From contig JAICSO010000033.1 of assembly GCA_025936825.1 (NCBI GenBank), positions 1 to 43,544 of the forward strand: a stretch of DNA of 43,544 bases, in the 5' to 3' direction. The DNA is from Terriglobales bacterium (lineage in GTDB: Bacteria > Acidobacteriota > Terriglobia > Terriglobales > Acidobacteriaceae). Position 1 is the stretch's first letter. Every line of letters starts with the position of its first letter. Below, one piece after another: positions 6,395 through 39,727 of the stretch. The position numbers and the translations under genes were made by a program. The notes beneath the pieces are model-generated. The model had not been told where the DNA came from and searched no databases. It saw only the letters and a list, made by a program, of their open reading frames with translations.

Positions 6395-7082
6395 CCAGAG
6401 TTAGAGGCGGAGCAGCAAGGGCGCGTTGGTTCGAGCCGAGATTCCTCAGATGCCAGCCGGAATAACGTACGAAATCAGACAAAAATCAGTTTGATTCTCG
6501 ACCGCTAGTCAGTCCTGAATCTACAAAGCGCGGGTCCGAATCGAAGTCGAACCTGAAATCCACAGCTCACTTATCTGCATACAGCTTCACAGGTATAGAT
6601 ATTTTCAATTCTTAGAACCTAAGCTGATTTCGAAACGTCACTTGGCGCCGACTGTGACTTGGTCGATGAAATGCGCCGCGGACCTTTGGGGAGTGCGCGG
6701 CGATTTCTACCATTGGCTTCCTTCAACCTCTGGCTTCCTTCAACCTCGTGTACGAAGCCAGGCCGTTGCTCATTGCAGCGGGAGTGTCCCACCTTCGCGT
6801 TTTCTTCGCAGAGGGCGGGAATTTTCAGCTTTACAAGCTGTGACCTCCGTTTGAGAAAGACTCCCAACAGTGACGAGCGGAGACTTGTAACTCGCATTGA
6901 CCAGCAAACAGGGTGGATGCCCGTCTGTTCGCTTTTTCGCTGTCATGGCACTATCGCGATCGTTCAATGACTGACCCATTCAGTGACACCCAAGAAACGT
7001 TTCAATGATTCGCCCGGAATTTGACACGCCTGAAAGCGGGGACTATAAAGTCGTTTGTTTCCAAAATAAGTGGAGGGTCCCG
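6395..7082. other. Intergenic region between divergent Nramp and SnoaL-like genes
   Basis: About 690 bp with no credible gene. It should hold the promoters of two divergent genes. The only clear structure is the 17-bp tandem repeat at 6714-6747. Short open frames have no ribosome-binding site and biased, non-protein-like sequences. Confidence 0.45.
6714..6747. repeat. Two perfect tandem copies of a 17-bp unit
   Basis: TGGCTTCCTTCAACCTC occurs at 6714-6730 and again at 6731-6747 without a mismatch. It lies in a non-coding stretch. Simple replication slippage explains it; a repeated protein-binding site is possible. Confidence 0.75.
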
Positions 7083-7550
7083 ATGAATAGGATTTGGATT
7101 TGTTGTCTCATCTGTACGTTGTCTTTGGGCAGTGCCGCCTGGTCGCAGGAGAAGAAGGCTGGCGGCAGGACTGAGAAAGTTATCGCTGGGCTGGAACAGC
7201 AGGTACGGATGGCTGTCATCAAGGGGGACACCTCCGTCCTGGAGCGATATCTTGCTGATGATTATGTGGGCATTGGGCCTGACGGAAACGCAGCCGATAA
7301 GAGCAGGACCATCCAAGAGTTGAAGGATGGCACCTTGAAGTACAGCGCCATCAATGTAACCGAAGAGAACGTTCGTTTGTACGGGGATACGGGGATATAC
7401 AACGGGCGCGCCAATGTCAAATTGACGATTAATGGCCACACGCAAACGGCCGATGTCCGGGCCACAATTGTTTGGCTGAAGCGGAATGGGCAGTGGAAGC
7501 GCGTTTCCTTTCAAGTAACGCCGGTGCAACCCGCTCCCACAGGAACTTAA
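7083..7550 (+). CDS. Secreted SnoaL-like / DUF4440 protein
   Basis: The 155-residue product starts at an ATG 7 nt after GGAGGG; an in-frame ATG 78 bp upstream has no such signal. Residues 1-23 form a signal peptide (hydrophobic core, SAAWSQ cleavage region). The mature part has the cystatin-like NTF2 pattern of DUF4440: a first helix with IAGLEQQVRMAVIKGD, then LERYLADDYVGIGPDG, TIQELKDGTLKY and a final strand pair VWLKRNGQWKRVSFQV. Such proteins often have no proven activity; some are isomerase-like or ligand-binding. It stands alone, divergent from Nramp and convergent with the GGDEF-EAL gene. Confidence 0.85.
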   Translation: MNRIWICCLICTLSLGSAAWSQEKKAGGRTEKVIAGLEQQVRMAVIKGDTSVLERYLADDYVGIGPDGNAADKSRTIQELKDGTLKYSAINVTEENVRLYGDTGIYNGRANVKLTINGHTQTADVRATIVWLKRNGQWKRVSFQVTPVQPAPTGT

Positions 7551-14957: not shown

Positions 14958-15614
14958 TTACGCTGCTTTGTCCTTGCGGCTAATTACAGGAGTGGGCTCG
15001 GCCTTTGCCGGAGAGAACACAGAAAGAGAAAAATCAATAATGTATTTGACGGTGCTTGAGCAAAACGGGCATGGGGTTTCGAGAACCTCCGGATTCTCTT
15101 CTGTTCTCACATTCAGAGGGAAAGAGCGCAGGCACTCCGTACAGGTAATCACGATATAAGGGATTCCGTTCGAGTCTTTTCCGTTCCGTGGAATCCAAAC
15201 CGGAGCTGAGGCGCTTTCATGCGCAGTTGCTTGCTCCGCAGAAGTCTCGATCAACGAAGCTACGCTGTTCAGCAGCGCTTCCGGATGATCTTCTCCCTTA
15301 GCATAGAAAGCGTCGGCCAGGACCCCGGTCGGTACAGCTCTGCTTCCATAAGCGCCGCTGCTGGCGATCACTGAAATCTTCGGGAAGCGGCGTCGTACCA
15401 CTGACAGCAATTCGAACCCAGACATTTCCGGCATGTTGAGATCAGAGATGATTACGTCCGGGATTACCACGCCTTTCAGCTTAAGAAGAGCGTCAAAACC
15501 GTTTTCCGCAGTAGCCACCTCGTAGCCTTTTTCCCGCAGCATCAGCGTAAAAACGTCACGAACGCCCTCATCGTCGTCCACCACAAGAATGCGGCGTTTT
15601 ACGAGAGCGGACAT
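14958..15614 (-). CDS. Receiver domain with C-terminal zinc ribbon
   Basis: The 218-residue protein starts at ATG 15614, 4 nt after GGAGGT; seven upstream in-frame codons are not needed. Residues 8-125 are a CheY-like receiver: the acidic pair in ILVVDDDEG, the phosphoryl Asp in DVIISDLNMPEMSG, and the Lys in FYAKGED. After a linker come APVWIPRNGKDSNG and then CTECLRSF and CPFC, two Cys pairs that should bind zinc, then YIIDFSLSVFSP. It has no DNA-binding helix-turn-helix, so output is probably by protein contact. A close paralogue lies at 39728-40378 and a receiver-only relative at 36138-36521. A 20-nt element upstream is shared with the latter. Confidence 0.85.
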   Translation of the reverse strand: MSALVKRRILVVDDDEGVRDVFTLMLREKGYEVATAENGFDALLKLKGVVIPDVIISDLNMPEMSGFELLSVVRRRFPKISVIASSGAYGSRAVPTGVLADAFYAKGEDHPEALLNSVASLIETSAEQATAHESASAPVWIPRNGKDSNGIPYIVITCTECLRSFPLNVRTEENPEVLETPCPFCSSTVKYIIDFSLSVFSPAKAEPTPVISRKDKAA

Positions 15615-15678
15615 TCGACCTCCTATTCCGCCCACGGCTCTTTGCTGGACCAGAAACTATCCCATTTCAGACCATATA

Positions 15679-15875: not shown

Positions 15876-17399
15876 CTAGCTTTTGCTTTTGCCTTTTGGC
15901 GTATGTGAGCGTTCTTCATGATTGCCGGATCTGTTCAAACGCTCAGGAACACCGGTGATAAGGCCTTGGTATTCCGTAAGGCGCTTGCCGATGATGACTA
16001 CCCCTTTGGACGTGATTTCATACTCGCGAATTTCTTTGCTATGGTTGCCGCCGCGCATCTTGATGACAACCATGATCTTGCGCAGTTCGCCGTCGATACA
16101 TACGTAGCGAAGCCGGATAATGTCATCGGTGAGAAAGGAAATCGAATAGGTACTAAACGGGAATTGTGTGAAAGACTCGTCCACCTCCACAGTGCTTAGA
16201 ATCGTCACGCCGACACCAGTTAAAGCAGTAATCATCCGATAAAGCGATTCGCGAAAGTCTGCGCGGAAGCCGGGAGCCAATGCCATTTCAAAGCCTGCCA
16301 GGGAATCAATCACCAGGCGTTTGGCGCCAATCTGTTGGACTGCGTCGAGAATCTCGTGCATGGTTTCATCCACTGAGAGGTCTAGCGGACGGAGGTAGAG
16401 GATTTCTAGTTTCTTCTCTTTTCGCGGCGTTCCTAAATCCAGACCAAAACTGCTGGCGCGCTCCGCGTATTCTTGAGGTCGTTCTTCAAAGACCACCACA
16501 ATTCCCGGCTGCCCTTGGCGTATGCCCTCAGCAATGAATTGGGTTGCCAAGACTGATTTCCCGGTTCCCGACGCCCCCGCCACCAGAACACTGTCCCCTT
16601 CGGGAATGCCGCCCCCGAGCATCTTGTCCAATTCCGCAATGCCGACGGAAAGGCGCCGTGCGCTGGGGATCTTTCTTGCTTGTCCGGCAAGCCCAAGAGT
16701 ACGCGAGAAGGCTTGCAGCCCAGCATTGGTAATACGAAAGGTGTGCAGTCCGGGCACGGACGCCTGGCCGCGCAGTTTCATGATTTGAAGCTTCCGAACT
16801 ATAGAACTTCGCTCCGACGTTTGGTATAGCCAAAAGAGGCCATCGGAGACCGTGAACACGGGATTGTCTCGGATTTCACCTTCGACATATTCTCCGACCA
16901 GAAAAGTTGTGGCTTGCCAACTGGTCAGGAGCAGCGCTAACCGTTGAATAAAAGCCTGCAGCTCTACTTCAGTTGTACCGCCGAGGGCTTTCCGCACCAC
17001 GGTGCGAAAGGAGTCCACGACCACGATACCGGGGTTTGCCTTCTCAACCTGTTTCGCAATCTCCTCCAGCACCGCGTCTAAGTCCTTCTCCAACACGACC
17101 TGGCTCAGGTTGATAAAGCGAACAGCAGTGCTTAACTTGGCTTGGTCGAAGAATGTGTATTGTTGCTGGTATCGCAGCATTTTGAGAGCGGGTTCGCCGA
17201 GGATGGTGAAGTAGAGCGCGGGACGTTCCGGAGTGGCGTTGGCGAACACAATTTGGTGCGCCAGTGTCGTCTTGCCGCTCCCTGGTGCGCCCGCGACGAT
17301 ATTGAAGGAAAACTCCGGGAGGCCGCCGCCCAGGATTTCATCCAGGCCCGGTACCCCGGTCGGCAGTTTTTTTATGATTACTCTATCGTGTGCGCTCAA
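15876..17399 (-). CDS. KaiC/RadA-like double ATPase (first copy)
   Basis: The 507-residue protein has two RecA-like domains of the KaiC superfamily. Domain 1 has Walker A GAPGSGKTT at 37-45 and Walker B IVVVDSF; domain 2 has Walker A GASGTGKSV near 274-282 and Walker B RLVIDSL. Domain 2 keeps the acidic pair after strand 2 (VVFEERPQEY). Domain 1 reads ALYFTILGEP there, so its catalytic Glu pair is changed and it may bind rather than hydrolyse ATP. No KaiA or KaiB gene is present. The TTG at 17399 follows AGAGGAAAGC and gives the usual KaiC N-terminus; an ATG at 17453 in frame would add 18 residues. The start overlaps the end of the upstream unknown gene, suggesting coupling. Confidence 0.85.
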   Translation of the reverse strand: MSAHDRVIIKKLPTGVPGLDEILGGGLPEFSFNIVAGAPGSGKTTLAHQIVFANATPERPALYFTILGEPALKMLRYQQQYTFFDQAKLSTAVRFINLSQVVLEKDLDAVLEEIAKQVEKANPGIVVVDSFRTVVRKALGGTTEVELQAFIQRLALLLTSWQATTFLVGEYVEGEIRDNPVFTVSDGLFWLYQTSERSSIVRKLQIMKLRGQASVPGLHTFRITNAGLQAFSRTLGLAGQARKIPSARRLSVGIAELDKMLGGGIPEGDSVLVAGASGTGKSVLATQFIAEGIRQGQPGIVVVFEERPQEYAERASSFGLDLGTPRKEKKLEILYLRPLDLSVDETMHEILDAVQQIGAKRLVIDSLAGFEMALAPGFRADFRESLYRMITALTGVGVTILSTVEVDESFTQFPFSTYSISFLTDDIIRLRYVCIDGELRKIMVVIKMRGGNHSKEIREYEITSKGVVIIGKRLTEYQGLITGVPERLNRSGNHEERSHTPKGKSKS

Positions 17400-17841
17400 G
17401 CTTTCCTCTCTTCTCGGAAACACGGCCGTCGAAGGCGGCCTCCGGCCATACATCCTGAACCAATCGGATCGTTAAACCCTCGCCAATGAAAGTCAGGAGC
17501 AGCCCAACCAACTGGGCAATGAGAATGGCCCCTCCGTCCCTGGCCTGTTCCTTGTCAGTCTGCGACACAAGCTCATCTAGACCCCTTAGCGAGCCATCCG
17601 CTGCTATTTGTACCGCGCTCAGATTGGGAACTTCTGCCCTGGCTAGCGTCAGAGCACGGGAAAGGAGCGAGCGAAAACCGGCAACTCCCGCGAGTGTAAT
17701 CAGAGGGCCGCGCAGCTTCGCACAAACACGAGAAGCGGCAGACTCCGACGGCGCGGAGTTCTCGTCCCCAACGGCTTCGTATGCAAGAAGGCGCTGGGCC
17801 AAATTTCGTGATTCCTGAAGACTCACGATTTCCTTTTCCAT
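17383..17841 (-). CDS. Unknown protein, shorter paralogue of a tandem pair
   Basis: The 152-residue product is mainly helical. Its centre, VCAKLRGPLITLAGVAGF followed by RSLLSRALTLA, is almost the same as in the next gene upstream (17874-18479), and both continue AADGSLxGLD and an I-L-I-x-Q-L-x-G-L-L hydrophobic stretch that could be one membrane-associated helix. It ends sooner and lacks the other copy's C-terminal third. I do not recognise a named domain. It overlaps the KaiC-like start by about 17 nt and is 32 nt after its paralogue, so the three genes are probably one transcript. A role with the ATPase is inference from this arrangement only. Confidence 0.7.
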   Translation of the reverse strand: MEKEIVSLQESRNLAQRLLAYEAVGDENSAPSESAASRVCAKLRGPLITLAGVAGFRSLLSRALTLARAEVPNLSAVQIAADGSLRGLDELVSQTDKEQARDGGAILIAQLVGLLLTFIGEGLTIRLVQDVWPEAAFDGRVSEKRGKLERTR

Positions 17842-17873
17842 GCGGGATAAATTCCAGACTCAGTTTTCTATAC

Positions 17874-18479
17874 TCAGTTCGGCTTGGGGCTTTTGATTGC
17901 CGCCACGACCGCCAAGACCGTCGCCGAGTTTAGGACGTTTCCAGAAATAGTCTTCAGTGCTTCTGTGACTGGGGGATATTGCTCCGCCAGTTCCTCAAGA
18001 CGCGCGCTGACGCCTTGGAGATCGTCCACTTCGTGTAGGATCGATTCAAAGCCCACAGGTACGCCGCTATTCGAGACGAACCTAAAGTCTGGAAGAATCT
18101 CAGATGTTACCAGCTGCAACGTAATTGCTTCGCCGACAACTCGGACAAGCAGCCCAAGCAACTGGGTAATGAGAATTATCCCTGCCTCCCGAGCTTCATC
18201 CGCATCGATTTGCGGCCGAAGCGCGTCTAGGCCGTGCAAGGAGCCATCCGCTGCTACCTGTACTGCGCTGAGACTCGGAGCGTCCGCCTTGGCCAGTGTC
18301 AGTGCACGCGAAAGCAGGGAGCGAAAACCGGCAACTCCCGCGAGTGTAACTAGAGGCCCGCGCAGTTTCGCACAAACACGAAAAGCGGCGAACTCCGCCG
18401 GCTCGGAGGCTTTGCCCGCAGCGCTTTCGTGAGCGAGAAGCCGTAAAGCCAATTCTCGCGTCCGTGGGGGAAGCATCAT
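17874..18479 (-). CDS. Unknown protein, longer paralogue of a tandem pair
   Basis: The 201-residue product shares with its neighbour the block FRVCAKLRGPLVTLAGVAGF and the following LLSRALTLAKADAP, AADGSLHGLD and QLLGLLVRVVGEAITL. It then adds about 60 residues with a helix ILHEVDDLQGVSARLEELAEQYP and an end rich in Ala and Val (LNSATVLAVVAAIKSP). No catalytic motif is visible. Start is uncertain: ATG 18479 is chosen, and TTG 18497 is possible; neither has a strong ribosome-binding site. It is the first gene of the run leading to the first KaiC-like ATPase. The pair clearly arose by tandem duplication. Confidence 0.7.
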   Translation of the reverse strand: MMLPPRTRELALRLLAHESAAGKASEPAEFAAFRVCAKLRGPLVTLAGVAGFRSLLSRALTLAKADAPSLSAVQVAADGSLHGLDALRPQIDADEAREAGIILITQLLGLLVRVVGEAITLQLVTSEILPDFRFVSNSGVPVGFESILHEVDDLQGVSARLEELAEQYPPVTEALKTISGNVLNSATVLAVVAAIKSPKPN

Positions 18480-18799
18480 TATCCGCTCGGTTGCCAAATG
18501 CCGCCGAAAGACTCAACGTGGAGCGTTCTCAGTCAGCGTACGCAGTCAATGTTACCCGCTTTGCGGCTGCTCGGATAGGGTGCGCACCTGCTGCGGTGGG
18601 TTCAACAATTTCGCTTACCCTGTCCAGGTTCTTGAGAGATGGTGAAAGGTGAGCAATAGCATCCCCAAAAGGCTTCCCGCGAATTGTGGCCAGGAATGCT
18701 CTTAGGCTTGTACACACTGTTTGCCCCACAACTACAGCTGTGGGGGCATTCCCGCTGGTTGGATTCCGAATCATAATGTCGCGGGGCCTCGCTAAACTT
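18480..18799. other. Divergent intergenic region
   Basis: About 320 bp between the start of the paralogue pair (minus strand) and a receiver gene (plus strand). No gene is supported. A hairpin at 18724-18745 lies upstream of the receiver gene. Confidence 0.4.
18724..18745. promoter_or_regulatory. Hairpin upstream of a receiver gene
   Basis: CCCCACA (18724-18730) and TGTGGGG (18739-18745) form a perfect 7-bp GC-rich stem with an 8-nt loop, 54 nt upstream of the receiver ATG. It may be an operator or leader hairpin. Confidence 0.4.
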
Positions 18800-19216
18800 A
18801 TGCCGCTTCGAATTCTGATCGCAGACGATAGCCGGGCTGTCAGGCATAGTCTGCATGGTTTGCTGGAGCAGCATCCTGGTTGGGAAGTGTGCGCAGAAGC
18901 AGTGGACGGGGCAGACGCCGTCGACAAGGCTCAGGAATGTGTGCCGGACATCATTCTTTTAGACTTCTTTATGCCTGGAATGACTGGGGTCGATGCCGCG
19001 CGGGTGCTTGGACGTGTTCTTCCGTCTGTTCCGATTCTCCTGGTCACGATTTACGTCACGTCTGAGCTGGTTAAGCAGGCCAAAGCTGCTGGAATCAAGG
19101 GAGCTGCTCCCAAGTCCGATACTCGGGGGATCTTGAATGGGATCGAGGCTCTAGTGAACAAAGAGACATTTTTCGAGATCAAACCAATTGAGCCTGCAAC
19201 AGATTCTTTGCTTTGA
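18800..19216 (+). CDS. Stand-alone NarL-type receiver
   Basis: The 138-residue product is a receiver of the NarL kind without the helix-turn-helix: LRILIADDSRAVRHSL, phosphoryl Asp in DIILLDFFMPGMTG, Thr in ILLVTIYVT and Lys in GAAPKSDT. The C-terminal helix is followed by a short acidic tail. The ATG at 18800 fits the domain start; ATG 18776 in frame is possible. Its TGA (19214-19216) directly abuts the TAA of the histidine kinase gene on the other strand (19217-19219). This closeness makes it a natural partner for that kinase, but partner choice is inference. Confidence 0.8.
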   Translation: MPLRILIADDSRAVRHSLHGLLEQHPGWEVCAEAVDGADAVDKAQECVPDIILLDFFMPGMTGVDAARVLGRVLPSVPILLVTIYVTSELVKQAKAAGIKGAAPKSDTRGILNGIEALVNKETFFEIKPIEPATDSLL

Positions 19217-21811
19217 TTAGGCTGCGGAGCTGCGGTCTACTGAACTTTCCATAGGCGGTGCTTTCCCCGATTCGGGCTTTGCGATCGGTAGTTTCACCTT
19301 CACGGAAGTGCCGGGGCTTTCGGAGACGACCTCTAACGAGCCGCCGAGCTCAACCACTCTCTCCCGCATGCCTGCTGTTCCGACTCCCAAACCGGAGCCG
19401 CTGTGAAGCGTTTCCAATTGCCCTGGCGGGAATCCACGGCCATAGTCTCTTACGAGCAAGACGGCGTGACCATTCTCCGCCTCTAGCCGAACGTCTACTT
19501 TCGAACTCCGAGAATGGCGATGCACATTAGTCAGGCTCTCCTGCAGTGCCCGGAACAAAACCATTTCAACGTCTGCCCGCAGCCGTTCGAGACGCGGGGA
19601 TATTTCCAAGTTCGCCTGAATGCCGCTCCGCTTGGCGAATCCTTCCACATACCACGCCGCAGCAGGAGCCAACCCGCTCTCGTCCAGCATCGGCGGATGC
19701 AACAAGTAAGAGATGGTGCGGATCTCCGCCAGGCATCTGTCCAGCAACTGGTTCGATTCTGCCAGCACCGCCTGCGCTTTCACGGGGTCAGGCTGGTTCA
19801 ACTGCGCGAGGTTCATCTTGAGTGCCACCAAATACTGCCCGGCACTGTCATGCAACTCGCGAGCAATCCTTCGCCGCTCGTCGTCCTGCACGTGCTGCAA
19901 ATGGCTCGATAGCCGACGTAAAGATTCGGTGCGCCGCTGCACCAGGAGTTCGAGTTGATCATGCGCTCGCTGGAGAGCTTCTTCGGCCTGTTTCCGCTGG
20001 CTGATGTCGTAAAAGCACTTGATTGCTCCCGCGATTTCTCCGAGCTGGTTTTTGAGCGGGCGGATGTTGACGACAACCGTGACCTGCGTACCGTCGGGCC
20101 GAGCGATCACGACTTCCGCGTCCCGCGCCTCAGGTATCTTGCCGCTCACGACCTCGCCCATAGGGCACTGATCGTGCGGCATGAAACTTCCGTCGGGACG
20201 AGATAACCTATACGACCCGCAGAACCGCTCGTCGGTATCTCCCGGAGCCGGCGCTCGGCCCCACAATTCCGCAGCGCGATCGTTGAATTCCTTGATCACA
20301 CCGGCGGCATCGCAGGAGTAGACGGCAACCGGACCTAGATCAAACAAGATGCGATAGTGCTCCTCACTCTCGCGAATCGCTTCCTGCACCTTCTTACGCT
20401 CCATCAGGTCTGCCGCCTGCCGAACCAGGAGGTCGAACATGCGCAAATCGCGCTCGGAAGGGTGGTGCGGCTCGCGCCAATGGGTCGAGATCATGCCCAC
20501 AATCTTCCCGCTTCGCGAAATCAGCGGCGTGGTCTGACAAGCCTGAATGCCGGTTTGAAGATACATTGCCCTCTCTTCGCTACTGGTCATGAAGTCGCAC
20601 TTTTCTATATCTGGGGCGATCACGCGCTTGCCGGTACGCAAGGCAGCCCCGCAGGTCGAATTTGAGGAGTCGATTCCCACCCATTCCCAGAATGCGGCCG
20701 CCTGTGGACTGAATCCGTGGAAAGCCAACAGGCGGAGCTCGCCTCCGCTCCCTCGCTCGGGATAAAGGATCTGCAGGCTGGCGAAATCCGATCGCATAAT
20801 GGAAACCGCCCCGTTGAGAATCCTTTGGTAGAGCGATTCGACATTCTCTTCGTCAATCAGCTGCGCGCTGATGCTATGTAGAAGCTTTGTGTCGTCGAGT
20901 TCCGCTTGCAGGTGCGCTTCGCTGACGCGCAGAGCTTCTTCCGAACGCTTGCGCTCGGTGATGTCGCGGGCGATTTTGGATGCCCCTACGATTCGCCCTT
21001 CACGATCTTTTATCGGGGAAATGGTCAAAGAGATGTCCAGCAACGAACCGTCTTTGTGCCGACGGACGGTTTCGTAATGGTCGATCGCTTGGCCGCGGCG
21101 AATACGATTTAGAATCATCGGCTCGTCCTCCGCGTGATCTGGAGGAATCAACATTGTGATGGGTTGCCCGATCGCTTCCTGTGCGGTGTAGCCGAATATC
21201 CGTTCCGCTCCATGATTCCAACTGACAATCACGCCATTGAGATCTTTACTGACGATGGCATCGTCGGAAGAGGCGACAATAGCGGCGGTCTCCGCATTTT
21301 GACGTGTGCGATAGTTTTCTCGAAGCAGGGCGTCGCCCAGAACCTGCAGCAGCTCGCCATTCACGATGAGCCGGCTCTGTGGCACCGGCTGCTGCTGGCG
21401 CGCAATTTCCCACAAACGTTCGAACTGGATACCGGCCTGGCGCGCCAGATGCTGAATTTCTGAGACCTGGGAGAAGTCGGCGAAGACGTATCCCCCCACC
21501 GCGGCCCCCACAACCATTCCCTCCAGTACGAGCGAGGTTCCCACGACTGACAACCCGTGAAATTGAGAAACGATGACCGCGGGTCGATCTGTGGTCTGCG
21601 CCAGGCAGCGGTGTGCACATTCAGCGAAGATGCCGGGGTCGTATCCACTCTGTTCGAATAACTGGAACAAAGGAGTGGGATGGATGGGACCAGAGGCCGG
21701 GCGCATCTCCCGGTCGAACAACTTGACGGTCAAGTGGACAGCTCTGGCATATTTCTCCAATGCCGTTCCCCAAAGGGTGGAGCTGAAAAGCACGTCGCTT
21801 GAGAGGCTCAT
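19217..21811 (-). CDS. PAS-GAF-PAS sensor histidine kinase, NarX/DegS class
   Basis: The 864-residue soluble kinase begins with a 150-residue sensor region containing two close Cys (FAECAHRC) and a Gly-rich strand (VVGAAVGGYVFADF), reminiscent of PocR-type sensor domains. Then come PAS 1 (about 165-290, ending GASKIARDITERKRSEEAL), GAF (about 310-480), PAS 2 (490-620), the HisKA_3 dimerisation helix with RRIARELHDSAGQY (phospho-His 654) and an HATPase with ESLTNVHRHS and VRDYGRGF. There is no membrane segment. Its ATG overlaps the TGA of the KaiC-like gene (ATGA), so the two are translationally coupled. Kinases of this class pair with NarL-type regulators; candidates are at 18800 and 40605. 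Confidence 0.88.
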   Translation of the reverse strand: MSLSSDVLFSSTLWGTALEKYARAVHLTVKLFDREMRPASGPIHPTPLFQLFEQSGYDPGIFAECAHRCLAQTTDRPAVIVSQFHGLSVVGTSLVLEGMVVGAAVGGYVFADFSQVSEIQHLARQAGIQFERLWEIARQQQPVPQSRLIVNGELLQVLGDALLRENYRTRQNAETAAIVASSDDAIVSKDLNGVIVSWNHGAERIFGYTAQEAIGQPITMLIPPDHAEDEPMILNRIRRGQAIDHYETVRRHKDGSLLDISLTISPIKDREGRIVGASKIARDITERKRSEEALRVSEAHLQAELDDTKLLHSISAQLIDEENVESLYQRILNGAVSIMRSDFASLQILYPERGSGGELRLLAFHGFSPQAAAFWEWVGIDSSNSTCGAALRTGKRVIAPDIEKCDFMTSSEERAMYLQTGIQACQTTPLISRSGKIVGMISTHWREPHHPSERDLRMFDLLVRQAADLMERKKVQEAIRESEEHYRILFDLGPVAVYSCDAAGVIKEFNDRAAELWGRAPAPGDTDERFCGSYRLSRPDGSFMPHDQCPMGEVVSGKIPEARDAEVVIARPDGTQVTVVVNIRPLKNQLGEIAGAIKCFYDISQRKQAEEALQRAHDQLELLVQRRTESLRRLSSHLQHVQDDERRRIARELHDSAGQYLVALKMNLAQLNQPDPVKAQAVLAESNQLLDRCLAEIRTISYLLHPPMLDESGLAPAAAWYVEGFAKRSGIQANLEISPRLERLRADVEMVLFRALQESLTNVHRHSRSSKVDVRLEAENGHAVLLVRDYGRGFPPGQLETLHSGSGLGVGTAGMRERVVELGGSLEVVSESPGTSVKVKLPIAKPESGKAPPMESSVDRSSAA

Positions 21812-23373
21812 AAGGAGGGCGCATCCTTTGACTGACTTTGCCGAGGCCGCCTGACGCTGCGACGCTCGGGGGCCCGAGAGACGAGTCCCCCGTAAGTGGA
21901 AAATGGAAGCTTAGGTGCCGGCAAGGCGCGCGGCAGCACGTGCATGCCCTTGCGATCCAGAATTTCGCATTCGTGCGTCACGCGGTCCACCGGATTCGCC
22001 CGCATCTTGCCGACAGTCAATCCCAGCCGGAAAGAATCGCCTAGTTCAATCCAGTTCATAAGGACGATGTTGTCCACCAGCGAGCTCATGGCGAAGTCGC
22101 CCATCATGGAATTCATTCCCAACATCTCGGGGTTCTCGTGGTTGTAAACCGCGACAATCTGGTGTTCCTTCATCAGGGCCACCAGAGCGTGAAAGAAGTC
22201 GCGAAAGATCCTGCCCCTTGTCCCAAGAGCGGAACCGTACGTGGAAAGGCTGTCAATCAGCACCCGCTTTGATTTGAATTCTTTGACCAATTCCTCGATG
22301 TGGTGGAAGTGCACATCCACTTCGATTTCCTGAGGCGGTTCATATTCCACGCGAACCAGGCCGCTTTTCACAAGTTCTGGGAGATCGATGCCGATGCTGG
22401 CGGCATTGCGCTCGATCTGTTCGACCTGCTCATCGAGCGAGAGCATCAAGCTGCGCTCGTCGCGCCTGGCTCCTTCGGCAATGAACTGGAGTCCCATGAC
22501 GCTTTTGCCGACCCCTGAGATTCCCGCCACGACCGTGGTGCTGCCCACAAAGTAGCCGCCGTTGATGACTTCGTCGAGACCAGGAATTCCCGACGGGAGC
22601 CGCGTATTGGGATCGAATGCAGCGGCTCGATCCCGACTAGGTCTTCGAGGCGCCTGAACGCGGCGATACACCTGGATGCCCGTGCCATCGATGATGCGGA
22701 ACGAGTGGCGCCCCATCTGAAAATCCTGGCCTCGCGATTTCACAATCTCGATGGAGCGGCTGACCGCGCGCTGCGCCTCCTCCATCCTGAGCCTGATCAC
22801 CGTGTCCGCAATAGATTCTTCTGGCAAAGATGCGGGCGCACTCCCGTCCAGCGATGAGGCTTCGACTGCCAGAAGGGCGGTGAGGTTTTCACGTTGCAAA
22901 CCCTCTGTAAGCACATGAAAGGCGGAACGCGACTCTGGGCCGCCATTGCTGCCGACCAAGCGCCCCACGCCGTCGATGAAGATGCGCCGAGCGCCGATCT
23001 TTGCTGCTTCTTCCAGGAGCACGCTATCCGCTTGTTGCAGTTCCTGCCGCAGCACCTCGCGAGTGGTGAACACGATCTTTAGTTTCCGGAGTTCTTCGAG
23101 CTTACGCAGATCCCAACCCAGACCCAGTGCGTCACGCATGATTTTGTCGGGTGAGACCTCGAAGACGACGATAATTCCGGGTTCGTCGAACTGGCTCGCC
23201 CCGCGGTAGACAAACTCCACACCGATCGTCGTCTTACCAGCACCGATGGCCCCTTCCACCAGGATGACATTGCCCCGCGGAATGCCGTTGGGCAGAATGT
23301 CGTCCAGTCCGGCGATGCCGGTCTTCACCAGATCGGGGTCAGGCATACGGTTCTCCGCTTCTTCTGGCTTCAC
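21808..23373 (-). CDS. KaiC-like double ATPase (second copy)
   Basis: The 521-residue protein has two KaiC-type domains: Walker A GAIGAGKTT at 41-49 with FIDGVGR as Walker B, and Walker A GISGVGKSV near 281 with VLIDSLS. The Glu pair after strand 2 is VVFEVSP in domain 1 and LSLDEQ in domain 2, so both differ from the canonical Glu-Glu. The Arg- and Ser-rich tail is not conserved with the first copy. The GTG at 23373 overlaps the winged-helix gene's TGA (GTGA), giving a 4-nt coupling; TTG 23379 and ATG 23346 are other in-frame choices. It is the middle gene of a three-gene operon. It is only distantly similar to the copy at 15876-17399, so the two probably have separate tasks. Confidence 0.85.
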   Translation of the reverse strand: MKPEEAENRMPDPDLVKTGIAGLDDILPNGIPRGNVILVEGAIGAGKTTIGVEFVYRGASQFDEPGIIVVFEVSPDKIMRDALGLGWDLRKLEELRKLKIVFTTREVLRQELQQADSVLLEEAAKIGARRIFIDGVGRLVGSNGGPESRSAFHVLTEGLQRENLTALLAVEASSLDGSAPASLPEESIADTVIRLRMEEAQRAVSRSIEIVKSRGQDFQMGRHSFRIIDGTGIQVYRRVQAPRRPSRDRAAAFDPNTRLPSGIPGLDEVINGGYFVGSTTVVAGISGVGKSVMGLQFIAEGARRDERSLMLSLDEQVEQIERNAASIGIDLPELVKSGLVRVEYEPPQEIEVDVHFHHIEELVKEFKSKRVLIDSLSTYGSALGTRGRIFRDFFHALVALMKEHQIVAVYNHENPEMLGMNSMMGDFAMSSLVDNIVLMNWIELGDSFRLGLTVGKMRANPVDRVTHECEILDRKGMHVLPRALPAPKLPFSTYGGLVSRAPERRSVRRPRQSQSKDAPSL

Positions 23374-23654
23374 GCGCAAACGCCCTTGACGAGCCGTAAG
23401 CCCTCAGTAAGCGGTTGATTACGGGAGTTCAGGAGTGCAAGGATTTCATGCCGTCCTTGTCTAGTGGAAGCCAATTCCAGCAGTCTGTCCAGACCTTTGC
23501 CCTCCGGGCCGTGGACCACAAGGAGGTACATGCGGGCCGCGTGAGTTGGATTGTGAAGACGCTCCATAAAGCCGGCGTCTATAAAACGATCCAGAGCTTC
23601 CGCGACTACCTTCATGTCGCGTCCTACAAAAGCAGCGATTTGCTCGCTGGTCAA
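23370..23654 (-). CDS. Winged-helix protein; true start probably further upstream
   Basis: From TTG 23654 the frame gives 94 residues: LTSEQIAAFVGRDMKVVAEA, a recognition-helix-like segment, AGFMERLHNPTHAARMYLL and a C-terminal helix bundle. This is a small winged-helix DNA-binding pattern. The frame continues upstream without a stop to 23823, encoding SSEIRRLLAATSL, then NGCDLDLLVFFYRHPRTL, which clearly completes the first helices of the domain. No ATG, GTG or TTG occurs in that extension; ATT codons at 23786 and 23783 are the only near-starts. The start may be non-standard or lost by mutation. The gene heads the KaiC/kinase operon through a GTGA overlap and may control it. Confidence 0.65.
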   Translation of the reverse strand: MTSEQIAAFVGRDMKVVAEALDRFIDAGFMERLHNPTHAARMYLLVVHGPEGKGLDRLLELASTRQGRHEILALLNSRNQPLTEGLRLVKGVCA

Positions 23655-23822
23655 GAGTGTCCGCGGATGCCGGTAAAAAAAGACCAGCAGATCGAGGTCA
23701 CAGCCGTTGCGGATCAGAGAAGTAGCGGCGAGCAGCCGCCTGATCTCCGACGAATCGGGCCGTTTGTGGGACGGTGTAGTAATAATTCGCTCTCGAGTAG
23801 CTCTCGTGCGCGGAATTGCTAT

Positions 23823-24177
23823 TCAGGCATAGGATTGCTGGTGTTTGACTCCGCGGTTGGATACGCCCTAGTGAGCCTATACCCGGTCGCGCGCCCATAT
23901 CTGTGCCCTTTTGACCATATCTGCAGGCCAGCCGAAAAATTCGCCTGGGTTGGCAGTACAGTGAAGCGTTCTTCCTCCTACAGCGGGCGGTGGATGGTGT
24001 TCGCAAGGCGCGTGCCCTATCGTTGAAGTCGACTTCCTTTTCCTTCCTCGTCGATAGGGATCGACACTGACGTCGGTTGGCGACCCGCAATTCTCCAATC
24101 CAACAAGTTAAGGGCAGGTGAATGCAGCCCAAGGCAACTCACAATCGCGCGGATTTCCGCGCAGAGGGATGTACGCA
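23823..24177. other. Divergent intergenic region before the stress island
   Basis: About 350 bp with no supported gene; open frames on either strand are antisense or random-looking. It should contain the promoters of the winged-helix operon and of the SYLF-BON gene. Confidence 0.4.
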
Positions 24178-25134
24178 ATGAGATTCAAGACAGGGATTTT
24201 CGCGATACTGACCGCTGCAGTTCTGGTCAGCACAATGGCGGTTGCCGCTGAGGAACCGTCGGAACAAGTCAAACGAATGGATGCAGCCGCAACCGTTTTA
24301 GACGAGATCATGGGAACTCCCGATAAGGGGATTCCGGAAGAACTGCTCGATTCCGCGAAGTGCCTCGCAGTCATACCGTCGATGGTCAAGATAGGTTTCG
24401 TCTTCGGCGGACGGCACGGAAGAGGAATCGCAACCTGCCGCACAACTTTTGGATGGAGCGCGCCTGCTCCTTTCACAGTGACCGGAGGCAGCTGGGGGTT
24501 GCAGATCGGTGGCGAAGCCGTCGACGTCGTCATGCTGGTAATGAATGACCAGGGCATGGAAAAGATGCTAGCCAGCAAGTTCAAGATTGGTGCTGACGCT
24601 TCTGCAGCGGCAGGCCCGGTTGGGCGCCACGTGGAAGGCACAACCGATTGGAAGATGCGCGCTGAAGTGCTCACCTATTCTCGCGCTCGCGGCGCGTTTG
24701 CAGGGCTCACGGTGAACGGCGCATCAATCACTCAAGACAAAGACGGCACGCGCATTCTGTACGGCCGGATGATCCCGTCCGCGCAAATTCTTAAGGGACA
24801 GGTAAAAGCCCCTGAGGGTTCGCATACCTTCCTGGCGGCGGTAAGGAAGTATGGAACTGAAGCACGCGTTGCCGAAGCATCAGACCGCGCCCAGAAAAGC
24901 GACACACGAACACGCGCCAACTCGACTGAAGCGAGGGGCGTGATCGAAGACAAGCTGAAGCGTGAGCCGGGCTTAGATAGCAAGGATATCCAAGTGACGT
25001 TGACTTCCGACGTGGTCACGCTGTCCGGATCTGTAATCAGCAGTGACGATCGCGACAAAGCTGTTCGGGTCGCGAAATTGTATGCCGGAGATCGAGCAGT
25101 CCAGGACCATTTATCGATCCAGAGGCCCGAGTAG
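24178..25134 (+). CDS. SYLF (Ysc84-like) lipid-binding domain fused to BON domain
   Basis: The 318-residue product has a signal peptide (MRFKTGIFAILTAAVLVSTM, cleavage near AVAAEE). Residues 30-230 follow the SYLF pattern: CLAVIPSMVKIGFVFGG, then GRGIATCRTTFGWSAPAPF, VDVVMLVMNDQGMEKML and SRARGAFAGLTVNGASI. The last 75 residues are a BON domain (VIEDKLKREPGLDSKDIQVT, LSGSVISSDDRDKAV). SYLF binds acidic membrane lipids and BON is found in envelope stress proteins such as OsmY. The pair suggests a periplasmic membrane-protecting protein. ATG 24178 follows GAGGG; ATG 24169 and 24118 also lie in frame. It is first in the stress island. Confidence 0.85.
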   Translation: MRFKTGIFAILTAAVLVSTMAVAAEEPSEQVKRMDAAATVLDEIMGTPDKGIPEELLDSAKCLAVIPSMVKIGFVFGGRHGRGIATCRTTFGWSAPAPFTVTGGSWGLQIGGEAVDVVMLVMNDQGMEKMLASKFKIGADASAAAGPVGRHVEGTTDWKMRAEVLTYSRARGAFAGLTVNGASITQDKDGTRILYGRMIPSAQILKGQVKAPEGSHTFLAAVRKYGTEARVAEASDRAQKSDTRTRANSTEARGVIEDKLKREPGLDSKDIQVTLTSDVVTLSGSVISSDDRDKAVRVAKLYAGDRAVQDHLSIQRPE

Positions 25135-25159
25135 TTTCCGCGCCTCTCAAGCGCATCGA

Positions 25160-25198
25160 GCGAAGGCCCGCCTCCCTATCGGCGGCGGGCCACTTCGC
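25160..25198 (+). terminator. Hairpin between SYLF-BON and BON genes
   Basis: GCGAA-GGCCCGCC (25160-25172) pairs with GGCGGGCC-TTCGC (25184-25191, 25194-25198), a 13-bp stem with a 2-nt bulge. It lies 26 nt after the SYLF-BON stop. No T-run follows, so it may stabilise the mRNA 3' end or act with Rho. Confidence 0.55.
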
Positions 25199-25221
25199 AC
25201 AAACCTACAACAGGAGAAAAC

Positions 25222-25635
25222 ATGACGAAGCTTAATTACACAAATATCGCTCGCACGCTGCTGTGCGGCGGTCTGCTACTCGGTGTGGGAGTAGTAGCGC
25301 GTGCCCAGGAACCAGCCAGTCAGCAGGCTTCGCCAGCTGCGGACAATACCAAGACGAACCAGCGAGATCGAAACGCGAACGAGCCCACGGCAGATCAGCA
25401 AAAGGAAAACCGTTCTGATCGCGAAATTACGCAACAGATACGACGAGCAATCGTGAAAGACCAGTCGCTCTCGACCTACGCCCACAACGTAAAGATCGTC
25501 ACTCAGAACGGGCAGGTCACATTGAAAGGTCCCGTGAGATCAGAGGACGAGAAGCGAGAAATCGAAAGCAAGGCTGCTGAAGTGGCGGGGCAGGACAAGG
25601 TCAGCAGCGAGCTTGACATCAAACCGCAGCAATAA
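25222..25635 (+). CDS. Secreted single BON-domain protein
   Basis: The 137-residue product has a signal peptide (LLCGGLLLGVGVVARA before QEPAS), a polar linker rich in Gln, Asn and Arg, and a C-terminal BON domain: ITQQIRRAIVKDQSLSTYA, then VKIVTQNGQVTLKGPVRSE and EIESKAAEVAGQDKV. BON proteins are thought to bind membrane lipids during osmotic or envelope stress. ATG 25222 follows CAGGAG. A single-BON relative of the second half of the preceding gene, it sits in the same-direction stress run. Its substrate or partner is unknown. Confidence 0.87.
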   Translation: MTKLNYTNIARTLLCGGLLLGVGVVARAQEPASQQASPAADNTKTNQRDRNANEPTADQQKENRSDREITQQIRRAIVKDQSLSTYAHNVKIVTQNGQVTLKGPVRSEDEKREIESKAAEVAGQDKVSSELDIKPQQ

Positions 25636-25676
25636 CGTTCGAAACCCATTTCGAACTTATCAAAGGAGAAGTACCC

Positions 25677-26237
25677 ATGGCAGGAAAAAACACAGCAGTA
25701 TTTGGCATTTATCCAACGCGCGTAAGTGTGGAAGGTGCGGTTGATGCCCTGAAGGCGGCAGGATTTCGTAACTCTGATATCTCCGTGCTGTTTCCCGAGA
25801 ACACGGGCACGAAAGATTTTGCCCATGAGAAAAACACCAAGGCACCGGAAGGCGCTGCAACGGGCGCAGGAACCGGAGCACTCCTGGGCGGCGGGCTGGG
25901 GTGGCTAGTGGGCATTGGGGCCCTCGCAATTCCAGGGCTAGGCCCGTTCATTGCCGCAGGGCCGATTGTGGCGGCGCTTGCCGGGGCGGGCGTCGGTGGA
26001 GCCATCGGCGGCCTCACAGGCGCATTGGTTGGCATGGGAATCCCCGAGTACGAAGCCAAACGTTATGAGGGCCGTGTCAAGGATGGCGGAATACTACTTT
26101 CCGTGCATTCGGATGATTCTCAGTGGACCAAGAAAGCGAAGGAAATCCTCGAGCACACCGGTGCCGAAGATGTCTCTTCCACCGGTGAAGCTACTGGTGA
26201 AAAGCGCGATTCCACCCAAATTCGCGAAGTAGCTTGA
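25677..26237 (+). CDS. Glycine-zipper general stress protein
   Basis: The 186-residue product starts with a small alpha/beta domain (TAVFGIYPTRVSVEGAVDAL, then GFRNSDISVLFPE), similar to the YflT/GSP17M stress-protein N-terminus. The centre is a long Gly/Ala region with glycine-zipper helices (GAATGAGTGALLGGGLGW, GAGVGGAIGGLTGALVGMG) that should insert into or span a membrane. The C-terminal part repeats the alpha/beta theme (GILLSVHSDDSQW). There is no signal peptide. ATG 25677 follows AAAGGAGAAG. Similar proteins are induced by desiccation, salt or cold in other bacteria; the exact role is unknown. Confidence 0.75.
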   Translation: MAGKNTAVFGIYPTRVSVEGAVDALKAAGFRNSDISVLFPENTGTKDFAHEKNTKAPEGAATGAGTGALLGGGLGWLVGIGALAIPGLGPFIAAGPIVAALAGAGVGGAIGGLTGALVGMGIPEYEAKRYEGRVKDGGILLSVHSDDSQWTKKAKEILEHTGAEDVSSTGEATGEKRDSTQIREVA

Positions 26238-26247
26238 CACAAGGAGT

Positions 26248-26278
26248 GCAGCGGACCTGGGTGAACCCGGTCCGCTGC
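26248..26278 (+). terminator. Strong hairpin after the glycine-zipper gene
   Basis: GCAGCGGACC (26248-26257) pairs with GGTCCGCTGC (26269-26278); inside, GGG and CCC close a TGAA tetraloop with one bulged T. The 13-bp stem lies 10 nt after the stop. It is followed by TTCTCATCTCC, only a weak T-rich tail. Terminator or mRNA end stabiliser. Confidence 0.62.
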
Positions 26279-26353
26279 TTCTCATCTCCCAATCGTCTGG
26301 TGTGCAGGTCGCACTCATGAATCATCGAACGACAACCGGTTCCCGGAGGAACA

Positions 26354-26905
26354 ATGCAAAACAAAACCTTGAACAAGCTATACGTAGCCGAATTGAAAGA
26401 CCTTTTTAGCGCCGAGAGTCAGTTGGTGAAAGCTCTTCCTAAAATGGCCAAAGCCGCATCCTCAGATGAACTTCGAGCCGGCTTCGAAAATCACTTGGAG
26501 CAAACTAAGGTTCACGTTCAACGTCTGGAAAAGATCTTCAAATCGCTGAACGAAAGCCCTACCGGCAAGAAATGTGTCGGTATGGAAGGCTTGGTGAAAG
26601 AAGGGTCCGAGTTGATGGAAGAGGGTTTTGAAGGAGCCGTTTTGGACGCAGGATTGATCGGTGCCGCTCGACGAGTGGAGCACTACGAGATTGCTGCGTA
26701 CGGGGTGGTCAACGAAATCGCCACGGCCCTTGGACAAACGCAGCACGCTTCCCTGCTGGAAGAGACCCTGGCCGAAGAGTCGGAAACCGACGAGAAACTG
26801 GCCGACCTCGCGGAAGAGATCAACTTCCAAGCCAAGGAAGAGGCTTCTGAAAGACCGCATGACGAATCCGAGCGAGAACGAAAACGGCCTACGCACGCTG
26901 CTTAG
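26354..26905 (+). CDS. YciE/YciF-like ferritin-fold protein (DUF892)
   Basis: The 183-residue product is a four-helix ferritin-like bundle of the DUF892 family: LNKLYVAELKDLFSAESQLV, then ENHLEQTKVHVQRLEKIF, VLDAGLIGAARRVEHYEIAA and EETLAEESETDEKLADLAE. The acidic and His residues at the usual di-metal positions (E in AELKD and AESQ, ExxxxH in ENHLEQTKVH, ExxH near VEHYE) are present. It is cytoplasmic. Relatives are induced in stationary phase and by osmotic stress, and a protective metal-handling role is proposed. A charged tail of about 20 residues (Glu/Arg-rich) follows the domain. ATG 26354 follows GGAGGAACA. Confidence 0.88.
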   Translation: MQNKTLNKLYVAELKDLFSAESQLVKALPKMAKAASSDELRAGFENHLEQTKVHVQRLEKIFKSLNESPTGKKCVGMEGLVKEGSELMEEGFEGAVLDAGLIGAARRVEHYEIAAYGVVNEIATALGQTQHASLLEETLAEESETDEKLADLAEEINFQAKEEASERPHDESERERKRPTHAA

Positions 26906-26960
26906 CCCAGAACACAATTTCTACGGAAACGAAAGACCAACATGACGAGGAGAAACAGGG

Positions 26961-27758
26961 ATGTACCACCACATAAAAAAACTCATGTACACGGTGAACG
27001 TCGGAAGTGCGGATCCGCGCTTTGGCAACATGCTGCTGGAGCAGTTCGGCGGCGCTAACGGCGAACTGGCGGCTGCGATGCAGTACTCGGTTCAAGGCCT
27101 CAATTGTGATGATCCAGAGCGAAAAGACATGCTGATGGATATCGGGACCGAAGAGTTGAGTCATCTGGAAATCGTAGGCACATTGGCGCGAATGCACCTC
27201 AAGCCTACGAAGAAGAGTCGAGATGCCGCCGAGGCTGATCCGCTCATAGCGATCGCCGGTGGAGGCGGAGTTGGCTTGTTCAATTCCATGGGCGACGCCT
27301 GGACCGCTGATTATCTGAAGATTACTGGGGAACTTGATGTTGACCTGCGAAGCAATATTGCCGCAGAAGCGCGCGCGAAAATCGTTTACGAGCGCTTGAT
27401 CAACTTCTGTGATGACGCGGGAACCAAAGACGCGCTCCAATTCCTGATGACTCGTGAGATCACTCACATGAAAGCATTCACTGCCGCGCTTGAAAGTCTG
27501 GGGAAAGACCGGTTTTCCATCGGGAACATACCTCCGACGCCTGGCTTGGTGGACGAGTATTTCAACGACTCCAGCGGGGTAGGCGATGAGGGCGAAACCG
27601 ACGCTCGCGGTCCGTGGAACGAGGGCGGCAACTGGAGAATCGTTGATTTCCCGGAACTCGAACAGGGCGTCGAGGGAGATCAGGCAAAGACGGCCGCCAA
27701 GAGCAACAAACGCGTCAATGATGACGGCGGAAAGACCAGAGTCAAGAAGTCGGCATAA
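26961..27758 (+). CDS. Manganese catalase
   Basis: The 265-residue product matches dimanganese catalases. The ligands are in place: Glu35 in GGANGELAAAMQY, Glu65 and His68 in GTEELSHLEIV, Glu in NIAAEARAKIVYERL and His in REITHMKAF. The Mn pair splits hydrogen peroxide to water and oxygen without heme. The C-terminal part holds NIPPTPGLVDEYFNDSSG and GPWNEGGNWRIVDFP, as in the family, then a Lys-rich tail. It follows the YciF-like gene by 55 bp and probably belongs to its transcript. ATG 26961 follows GAGGAGAAACAGGG. Function is assigned from these residues. Confidence 0.93.
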   Translation: MYHHIKKLMYTVNVGSADPRFGNMLLEQFGGANGELAAAMQYSVQGLNCDDPERKDMLMDIGTEELSHLEIVGTLARMHLKPTKKSRDAAEADPLIAIAGGGGVGLFNSMGDAWTADYLKITGELDVDLRSNIAAEARAKIVYERLINFCDDAGTKDALQFLMTREITHMKAFTAALESLGKDRFSIGNIPPTPGLVDEYFNDSSGVGDEGETDARGPWNEGGNWRIVDFPELEQGVEGDQAKTAAKSNKRVNDDGGKTRVKKSA

Positions 27759-36137: not shown

Positions 36138-36521
36138 TTAGACGCTCGGCGCTCGATTCCCCTCAAGGAGTAGGGCCAGGGTTGCCACGAGGTTGCTCGC
36201 TGGAGCGCCCTTTGCATAGAAGCCGTGCGCCCTCGCCTTGGGTGGTAACTCGTCAGCGTCTCGATACGCGCCGCTCATTGCGATGGTCACGATCTGCGGA
36301 AAGCGGCGCTGTACCTCCGAGAGAAGCTCGAAACCGGACATTCGCGGCATATTAAGGTCGGAGACAACTACATCGGGGATGCTTTGACTAATAAACACAA
36401 TAGCCTCAAGGCCATCCTCAGCTTCGGCAACCTTGTAACCCTCGGACTCCAGCAGCAGCGACATGGAAGTACGGATGGCTGGATCGTCATCCACAACAAG
36501 AACTTGAGCGAGGGACGCCAT
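36138..36521 (-). CDS. Stand-alone CheY-like receiver
   Basis: The 127-residue product is one receiver: QVLVVDDDPAIRTSMSLLL, phosphoryl Asp in DVVVSDLNMPRMSG, Ser in AMSGAY and Lys in FYAKGAP. The block SDLNMPxMSGFELLSxV and RRFP is nearly the same as in the two receiver-zinc-ribbon proteins, so this is a relative that lacks the zinc ribbon. It has no output domain. A 20-nt element 36 nt upstream of the ATG is shared with the zinc-ribbon gene at 14958-15614. CCGCC/GGCGG downstream is a weak terminator candidate. Confidence 0.85.
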   Translation of the reverse strand: MASLAQVLVVDDDPAIRTSMSLLLESEGYKVAEAEDGLEAIVFISQSIPDVVVSDLNMPRMSGFELLSEVQRRFPQIVTIAMSGAYRDADELPPKARAHGFYAKGAPASNLVATLALLLEGNRAPSV

Positions 36522-39691: not shown

Positions 39692-39727
39692 ACGTACGAA
39701 ATCATGCTGTTGACCCTTCCCTATTCG

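Follow-up and report, generated by a model that had tools for sequence, protein, structure and literature searches.

Two KaiC-like ATPases with different conserved partners as candidate KaiB-free signaling modules in an acidobacterial genome

In the cyanobacterial KaiABC/SasA system, the histidine kinase SasA is the reader of KaiC. Other arrangements are described in the papers cited here: Rhodobacter has a KaiBC hourglass (PMC10076222) built from KaiC2/KaiB2 homologues (PMC11372060); Synechocystis KaiA3 is a KaiC3 partner encoded upstream of kaiB3-kaiC3 (PMC11372060); in Haloferax, the KaiC-like protein CirA is genetically tied to the Lrp/AsnC-like DNA-binding regulator CsmR (PMC13286277); myxobacteria carry one to seven KaiC homologues per genome, few of them with KaiB (PMC11832031); and archaeal KaiC hubs were described by Makarova et al. 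(2017, as cited in PMC5847659). Here we describe a 43,544-nucleotide stretch of DNA from a Terriglobales bacterium (the window; contig JAICSO010000033.1 of assembly GCA_025936825.1, positions 1 to 43,544 of the forward strand) that encodes two double-domain KaiC-like ATPases, KaiC-A and KaiC-B. Conservation of the gene neighborhoods supports a separate set of partners for each: an unnamed protein family, P, for KaiC-A, and a winged-helix protein with a PocR-domain histidine kinase for KaiC-B. We propose, with moderate confidence in the reading and its mechanism taken together, that these are two different signaling modules that work without KaiB.

Both ATPase genes are on the minus strand, separated by 4.4 kb, and their open reading frames, strands and coordinates agree with a first-pass annotation that had placed two double-domain KaiC-like ATPases about 4 kb apart on one strand. 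In the direction of transcription the order is winged helix, KaiC-B and kinase, then P1, P2 and KaiC-A:

18497-15876, minus strand: module A, P1-P2-KaiC-A
17874-18497, minus strand: P1, a helical protein of no named family, with a C-terminal helical hairpin absent from P2
17383-17841, minus strand: P2, the core P domain; overlaps KaiC-A
15876-17453, minus strand: KaiC-A, double-domain KaiC-like ATPase; alternative start at TTG 17402 possible
23822-19217, minus strand: module B, winged helix-KaiC-B-kinase
23370-23822, minus strand: winged-helix protein, MarR-like; start codon uncertain
21808-23373, minus strand: KaiC-B, double-domain KaiC-like ATPase
19217-21811, minus strand: sensor histidine kinase, PocR-PAS-GAF-PAS-HisKA_3-HATPase (Pfam)
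18806-19216, plus strand: receiver-only response regulator, convergent with the kinase; possible output

Each ATPase contains two PF06745 stretches (KaiC-A, 8.8e-76; KaiC-B, 1.8e-89) and so is a two-domain protein. P1 and P2 are paralogues (55% identical) that precede KaiC-A, as the first-pass annotation had it, and the overlaps it reported in the module B operon are in place: GTGA between the winged-helix and KaiC-B genes (23373-23370) and ATGA between the KaiC-B and kinase genes (21811-21808). The winged-helix frame stays open up to 23822, beyond a TTG at 23654. The receiver-only gene lies tail to tail with the kinase gene and head to head with P1; the HisKA/HATPase kinase and this adjoining receiver make up a two-component gene set, and their pairing is predicted. 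A longer receiver frame (18686-19216) matches PF00072 at 2.1e-18.

The locus resembles KaiABC/SasA in having a double-domain KaiC homologue and a histidine kinase in the pathway. It differs from KaiABC in that neither module has KaiB, one glutamate of CI (the N-terminal domain) is replaced in each ATPase, and the clade of KaiC-A (class A, below) lacks an equivalent of T432; unlike SasA, the window kinase has a PocR domain, and no KaiB domain is among its Pfam matches. The logic of a KaiC-plus-kinase operon is shared with the Rhodobacter KaiBC hourglass (PMC10076222) and with an operon on contig C58 of the source genome, and a Ser-Ser pair is common to KaiC-B and C58-type KaiC. In contrast to both, the window modules lack KaiB and carry P or a winged helix, and both ATPases fall below the PRK09302 cut-off. 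KaiA3 is like P in being a partner encoded upstream of a KaiC homologue in conserved synteny (PMC11372060), but P has no receiver domain (Pfam) and no KaiA was among the best 50 of 70 Foldseek matches. CirA/CsmR parallels module B in linking a KaiC-like protein to a DNA-binding regulator; it differs in organism, and no histidine kinase is evident in the excerpt of PMC13286277. Like myxobacteria, the source genome has several KaiC paralogues mostly without KaiB, but no dedicated non-Kai partner comparable with that of module A is described in the excerpt of PMC11832031. Among the titles and abstracts listed by literature searches, none concerned a P-like KaiC partner or a PocR kinase with KaiC, although PMC5847659 contains both of the latter terms, and no paper in the collection searched joined KaiC, Acidobacteri-, histidine kinase and operon.

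The case for module A begins with the tie between P and KaiC-A. A scan of GTDB contigs with one peptide pattern from the P alignment gave 22 P loci, 21 titled Acidobacteriota and one titled as a betaproteobacterial metagenome-assembled genome; at least four are the same contigs as in sampled genomes G013, G039, G047 and G049. In 21 of the 22 loci, P2 is immediately followed by KaiC-A coding sequence (in the other, L063, the contig ends after P1), and both P1 and P2 are present in 20, the remaining two ending at contig edges. Loci were counted by tblastn and six-frame searches; in some loci, longest-frame calls hid P1 or KaiC under antisense frames. Among 396 sampled Acidobacteriota genomes, P was found in 16 (E<=0.001) and KaiC-A in 16 (E<=1e-60); the KaiC of genome G453, with 31% identity to KaiC-A, falls outside class A. 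KaiC-A orthologues (at least 51% identity) occur in 15 of the 396, with P directly upstream in 14, including weak P matches in G492 (3.7e-4) and G756 (5.9e-4, partial). In G655, P is fused in frame to the N terminus of KaiC-A within a 671-residue frame (P profile, 2.6e-19; KaiC-A, 2e-157) in a locus free of N. P is thus beside or fused to KaiC-A in 15/15 orthologue-bearing genomes, and the association of the paralogues with the ATPase, which the first-pass annotation had asked to see conserved, is upheld.

Both genes were present in 15 genomes, P alone in one, KaiC-A alone in none and neither in 380 (Fisher 3e-26, genome kinship ignored), with G480 scored as lacking P. The most conservative table (14/2/1/379), in which G480 and G712 count as P alone and G655 as KaiC-A only, gives 8e-23, again ignoring kinship. 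The G480 match (E 2.7e-4, no KaiC-A) falls within a long frame that has no Pfam match at all and was on that ground attributed to chance. The in-frame fusion and the constant adjacency argue that P is a physical partner of KaiC-A, and the position of the fusion, at the KaiC-A N terminus, puts P on the CI side. P2 is the constant part, since several genomes lack P1 or have it at a distance or in divergent orientation.

P1 and P2 matched nothing in Pfam, NCBIfam, PADLOC or PHROGs, and the best sequence match in the PDB, the renin receptor (E 0.049), was judged to be chance. The AlphaFold2 model of P2 (mean pLDDT 77, pTM 0.67) has long helices at 8-25, 35-70 and 97-131 and a short beta hairpin; that of P1 (mean pLDDT 71, pTM 0.56) has a P2-like core plus the C-terminal hairpin. 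Foldseek searches of the PDB with P2 and P1 gave nothing at E<=0.001 among the best 50 of 70 and 50 of 61 matches, respectively, and a viral library likewise gave nothing at the same threshold. With no Pfam or NCBIfam match and no Foldseek match at that level, a KaiA-like or KaiB-like identity for P was not supported; the moderate confidence of the models leaves room for a remote known fold. Across 296-378 bases, the P1 and P2 genes share 77-81% DNA identity in 4/7 loci (the window, L042, L049 and L052), which may reflect gene conversion.

Several further observations concern P loci. A second P1-P2 pair in the source genome (G000:C60 1-1130, L027), with a Crp/Fnr-like gene (identified by eye) ahead of it, reaches a contig edge, where KaiC-A begins. 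Such a gene also lies near P1 on the same strand in L042-L048, L054 and L055 as well as L027, on the opposite strand in L060, L061, L063 and L103, and not in the window; in L103 it stands beside a P1 located about 9 kb from P2-KaiC-A. This gene may regulate P1 or be its partner. L052 is P1-P2-KaiC-A on the contig titled betaproteobacterial; its P2 is 76% identical to the window P2, and its HrcA-like protein (by eye) shares 31-47% identity with the counterparts in window relatives (a match in 23/26 genomes); this contig may represent either transfer to another lineage or a mislabeled bin. An open frame of 182 residues runs antisense to P1 (17884-18432, plus strand); the P1 genes of L022, L044, L047, L050 and L054 likewise have long frames opposite them, perhaps as an effect of codon usage.

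A kinase frame lies directly 3' of KaiC-A in 14 loci (L057, L062, L102-L105, L107-L111, L113, L115 and L116). Ten of these were seeds of the kinase-core profile; L062, L107, L111 and L113 were not. Pfam confirmed HisKA or HisKA_3 together with HATPase in L057, L104, L105, L109, L110 and L115, and gave GGDEF and HATPase for L116. The same profile found no same-strand kinase within 3 kb of KaiC-A in L106; L047 (the G013 contig) carries a kinase-regulator pair just past KaiC-A on the opposite strand. By eye, a shared segment, NE-L--a-vR-hELtE-A, precedes the kinase core in L057, L102-L105, L108-L110, L115 and L116 and is possibly a docking helix.

KaiC-B homologues at E<=1e-100 are present in 8 of 399 genomes of the class, the source genome included, and in the seven others (44 to 81% identity) a PF10114 PocR kinase follows in 7/7. 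Across ten module B loci, a PocR-domain protein comes after KaiC-B in nine and a winged helix lies 5' of it in eight (counting the window, L030 of genome G031 and L031 of G043), so the neighbors of this ATPase also proved conserved. L030 ends at a contig edge, where only the beginning of a PocR-like protein is present after the winged helix and KaiC-B. The winged-helix profile was seeded with the window, L030, L072 and L031, the last of these chosen by eye, and found L073, L075, L076 and L078. The window protein has a weak MarR match (9.5e-4, under the cut-off), those of L075 and L076 exceed the MarR_2 cut-off, that of L072 matches nothing, and L074 has a transposase-like sequence, by eye, in the corresponding position. 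A receiver is fused to the PocR kinase in 3 of the 10 loci (L075-L077), which makes plausible the KaiC-to-kinase-to-receiver logic that the first-pass annotation had drawn by analogy with cyanobacterial clock output.

The first-pass annotation had called the two ATPases twins, a description that phylogeny contradicts. A PF06745 search of the source genome returned nine matches: a short one on contig C14 and the rest in four double-domain proteins. The four proteins represent four KaiC classes (A, B, C91 and the canonical C58), each with a different set of neighbors. In a tree of 49 rows (29 class A, 10 class B, 4 C91 and 6 canonical), each class occupies one side of a branch, with support of 100/100 for A, 98/86 for B, 100/100 for C91 and 100/100 for the canonical class. 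Because the tree sets classes A and B apart, KaiC-A and KaiC-B are separate paralogues, and a recent duplication as the origin of the pair is rejected. The midpoint root serves for drawing only. The tree tool flagged meetings of long branches that involve L031 and class B as well as the stems of the canonical class and class A; the placement of L031 within class B is unsure. Rows shorter than 430 residues (L022, L034, L035, L043, L046-L048, L055 and L061) were left out of the tree and of the motif tables. In family tests, KaiC-A (264 bits), KaiC-B (286) and the C91 protein (240) all scored below the NCBIfam PRK09302 cut-off of 408 bits, and KaiC-A (174) and KaiC-B (212) below that of TIGR02655 (546 bits); the C58 KaiC, as a control, passed the former (726) and failed the latter (356).

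Contig C58 carries an ordinary KaiC-KaiB-KaiB-kinase operon, with two PF07689 KaiB proteins and a PAS kinase. The earlier statement that KaiA and KaiB are missing therefore stands for KaiB within the window, where a six-frame search (E<=1e-4) with a model built from the genome's own two KaiB proteins found none, but not for the organism. No KaiA family was among the matches listed for eight window proteins, a survey that did not include a search with a dedicated KaiA model. KaiB was present at 6/6 canonical loci; in the loci examined, none of the class A, B or C91 KaiC genes had KaiB as a neighbor, apart from L074, where a separate KaiB operon lies 6.4 kb from KaiC-B.

Motif residues were compared across these classes. 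Motifs were read from an L-INS-i alignment to which L116 was added and from which L022-L025 (L023-L025 duplicate L056, L059 and L058, respectively) and the second copies of the genome's own C58 and C91 proteins were removed. An initial reading of the class A CI pair as L-G (MAFFT auto) was withdrawn after L-INS-i and ungapped counting from Walker A gave G-E. KaiC-A has G-E in CI, E-E in CII and S-F at the phosphosites, and KaiC-B has E-V, D-E and S-S, respectively, so neither retains the CI Glu-Glu pair of KaiC and the proposed alteration of the pair in one or both domains is confirmed. The CI pair is EE in 6/6 canonical rows, GE in 30/30 class A rows, SE in 4/4 C91 rows and EV or ET in 9/10 class B rows, the tenth being truncated L074. 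In CII, class A has EE in 24 rows, EK in three and EQ in three (n=30), and class B has DE in 9/10. The phosphosites are SS in 6/6 canonical rows, SF in 24/30 and AF in 6/30 class A rows, SY in 4/4 C91 rows, and SS in eight, ST in one and NS in one of the ten class B rows. Glu77 of KaiC is named as a catalytic glutamate (PMC6549140), and S. elongatus KaiC E77Q/E78Q has 22% of wild-type ATPase activity, retains KaiA-stimulated phosphorylation, remains in its ground state and does not form a complex with KaiB (PMC5007536); KaiC2 homologues have two serines, and some KaiC3 proteins have tyrosine as the second site (PMC5520375). A replaced CI residue and a missing KaiB go together across classes A, B and C91, and this combination suggests that P plays toward KaiC-A the part that KaiB plays toward KaiC, binding the ring and reporting its nucleotide state, with a kinase as reader.

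From these observations we infer the following for binding, phosphotransfer and output. In module A, P (P2 and its duplicate P1) would bind KaiC-A, with the CI (N-terminal) ring as the likeliest site, and, in the place of KaiB, would read or gate the ATP state of the ATPase. The output would be the directly downstream histidine kinase in many other lineages and, in the window lineage, a kinase acting in trans. In module B, KaiC-B would set the activity of the PocR kinase through ATP turnover, CII Ser-Ser phosphorylation or both, in a manner comparable with KaiC and SasA; a receiver would accept phosphate from the kinase, with the winged helix as a regulator of the operon or a second output.

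Several points weigh against this proposal. The window KaiC-A has no downstream kinase, nor does any same-strand kinase follow KaiC-A in 15 GTDB loci with at least 2.4 kb of downstream sequence, of which 11 are close to the window (L042, L044, L045 and L047-L054) and four belong to another lineage (L056 and L058-L060). A single CI residue is replaced (E78 is kept in class A, E77 in class B), whereas the published variant changes both, so a CI defect or loss of CI hydrolysis is suggested rather than certain. Class A has phenylalanine at the second phosphosite in 30/30 rows and alanine at the first in six, which makes phosphorylation timing doubtful in this class. In module B, L077 has no winged helix and L031 no kinase. 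The window receiver has matches at E<=1e-18 in 25 of 61 genomes, its own included, with many per genome; it is therefore not specifically linked to Kai proteins, and the matches gave no specific support for 18806-19216 as a dedicated Kai output. Finally, P was sampled almost wholly within Acidobacteriota.

Among other explanations, the one that survives best concerns module B, which may be a plain two-component operon in which KaiC-B is an ATP/ADP sensor or scaffold without phosphorylation-based timing. This is a credible reading, to which we give clearly less weight than to the proposed modules. The HisKA_3, HATPase and PocR/PAS/GAF domains of the kinase are recognizable and would suit it, as would the D-E pair in CII of class B; the KaiC2-like Ser-Ser pair (PMC5520375), kept in eight of the ten rows, would be needless for a mere scaffold.

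It is unlikely that both ATPases are ordinary KaiC proteins that use the C58 KaiB in trans, with P and the winged helix regulating only expression or stability. The genome does supply two KaiB genes and, at the same contig, a KaiC above the PRK09302 cut-off, and the Walker A lysines are present in all aligned rows with the sole exception of CI in truncated L074. However, KaiB keeps company with the canonical class rather than with classes A, B and C91, L074 aside, these three classes share the loss of one CI glutamate, and the P-KaiC-A fusion in G655 is more readily explained by a physical partner than by a protein that regulates expression.

Equally improbable, in our estimate, is that P is a kinase-side adaptor that docks the downstream histidine kinase and is not a direct partner of KaiC. 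The segment shared by the kinases downstream of KaiC-A would agree with such a role, as would G712 (L112, about 6657-7319, minus strand), where a P domain (E 1.1e-8) with no KaiC nearby directly precedes a broken kinase, recognized by eye. Against it, P stays with KaiC-A in the 15 loci that have no same-strand kinase, and the fusion of P is to KaiC. That conserved neighborhoods reflect shared ancestry alone, with no functional link, we regard as very improbable: many loci do come from one family, near-copies inflate the counts and the Crp-like gene (by eye) also lies near P1 across a wide set of loci, but P stays with KaiC-A, as a neighbor or as a fusion, in four further families of the phylum (f36, f37, f53 and f71) where KaiC identity is 51-59%, whereas a receiver-zinc-ribbon gene located after KaiC-A in the window is missing from every other P locus examined.

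This receiver-zinc-ribbon gene had been counted as a part of module A, an assignment we do not retain: the six-frame searches found the zinc part in none of the other P loci, and the gene is present in the same-genus genomes G001-G004, where P2 and KaiC domains, beyond weak matches, are absent. Its family has seven matches at E<=1e-25 in the source genome, three of them in the window:

14958-15635, minus strand: receiver-zinc-ribbon copy
39704-40378, plus strand: receiver-zinc-ribbon copy
about 36162-36506, minus strand: receiver-zinc-ribbon copy, receiver part only

Two copies of the same family flank a KaiC-KaiB operon in L038. Elsewhere, the distant KaiC of G453 (L117, 4944-8763; 31% identity to KaiC-A) lies between a receiver-only gene and a hybrid kinase, a further kind of partner arrangement. 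Divergent from the module B operon in the window is a stress-type cluster (24118-27758, plus strand; Ysc84+BON, BON, YflT/ActD-like, DUF892 and manganese catalase), a candidate target. In PADLOC, the ATPases matched only over short P-loop stretches and P1, P2, the kinase and the winged helix matched nothing, and an anti-phage defense role was rejected.

More tentatively, and with less conviction than the two-module proposal, P may be a non-homologous replacement for KaiB (or KaiA), a new class of KaiC partner that binds the CI ring and, together with a histidine kinase in cis or trans, forms a KaiC-based timer or energy switch whose origin was independent of KaiB. Module B would then be a second, separate rewiring, and KaiC a general hub in the phylum with a partner position filled anew at least two times. 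The unnamed family P is a dedicated neighbor of KaiC-A and is fused to it in a relative. The proteins described, including those of L057 (Silvibacterium bohemicum S15), form a defined set with which to test how partners are replaced and whether the CI glutamates are needed. The findings bear on how KaiC functioned before KaiB and KaiA and on what KaiC-like proteins do in bacteria without KaiB, and they suggest that the clock ATPase KaiC is a more general, rewirable signaling part.

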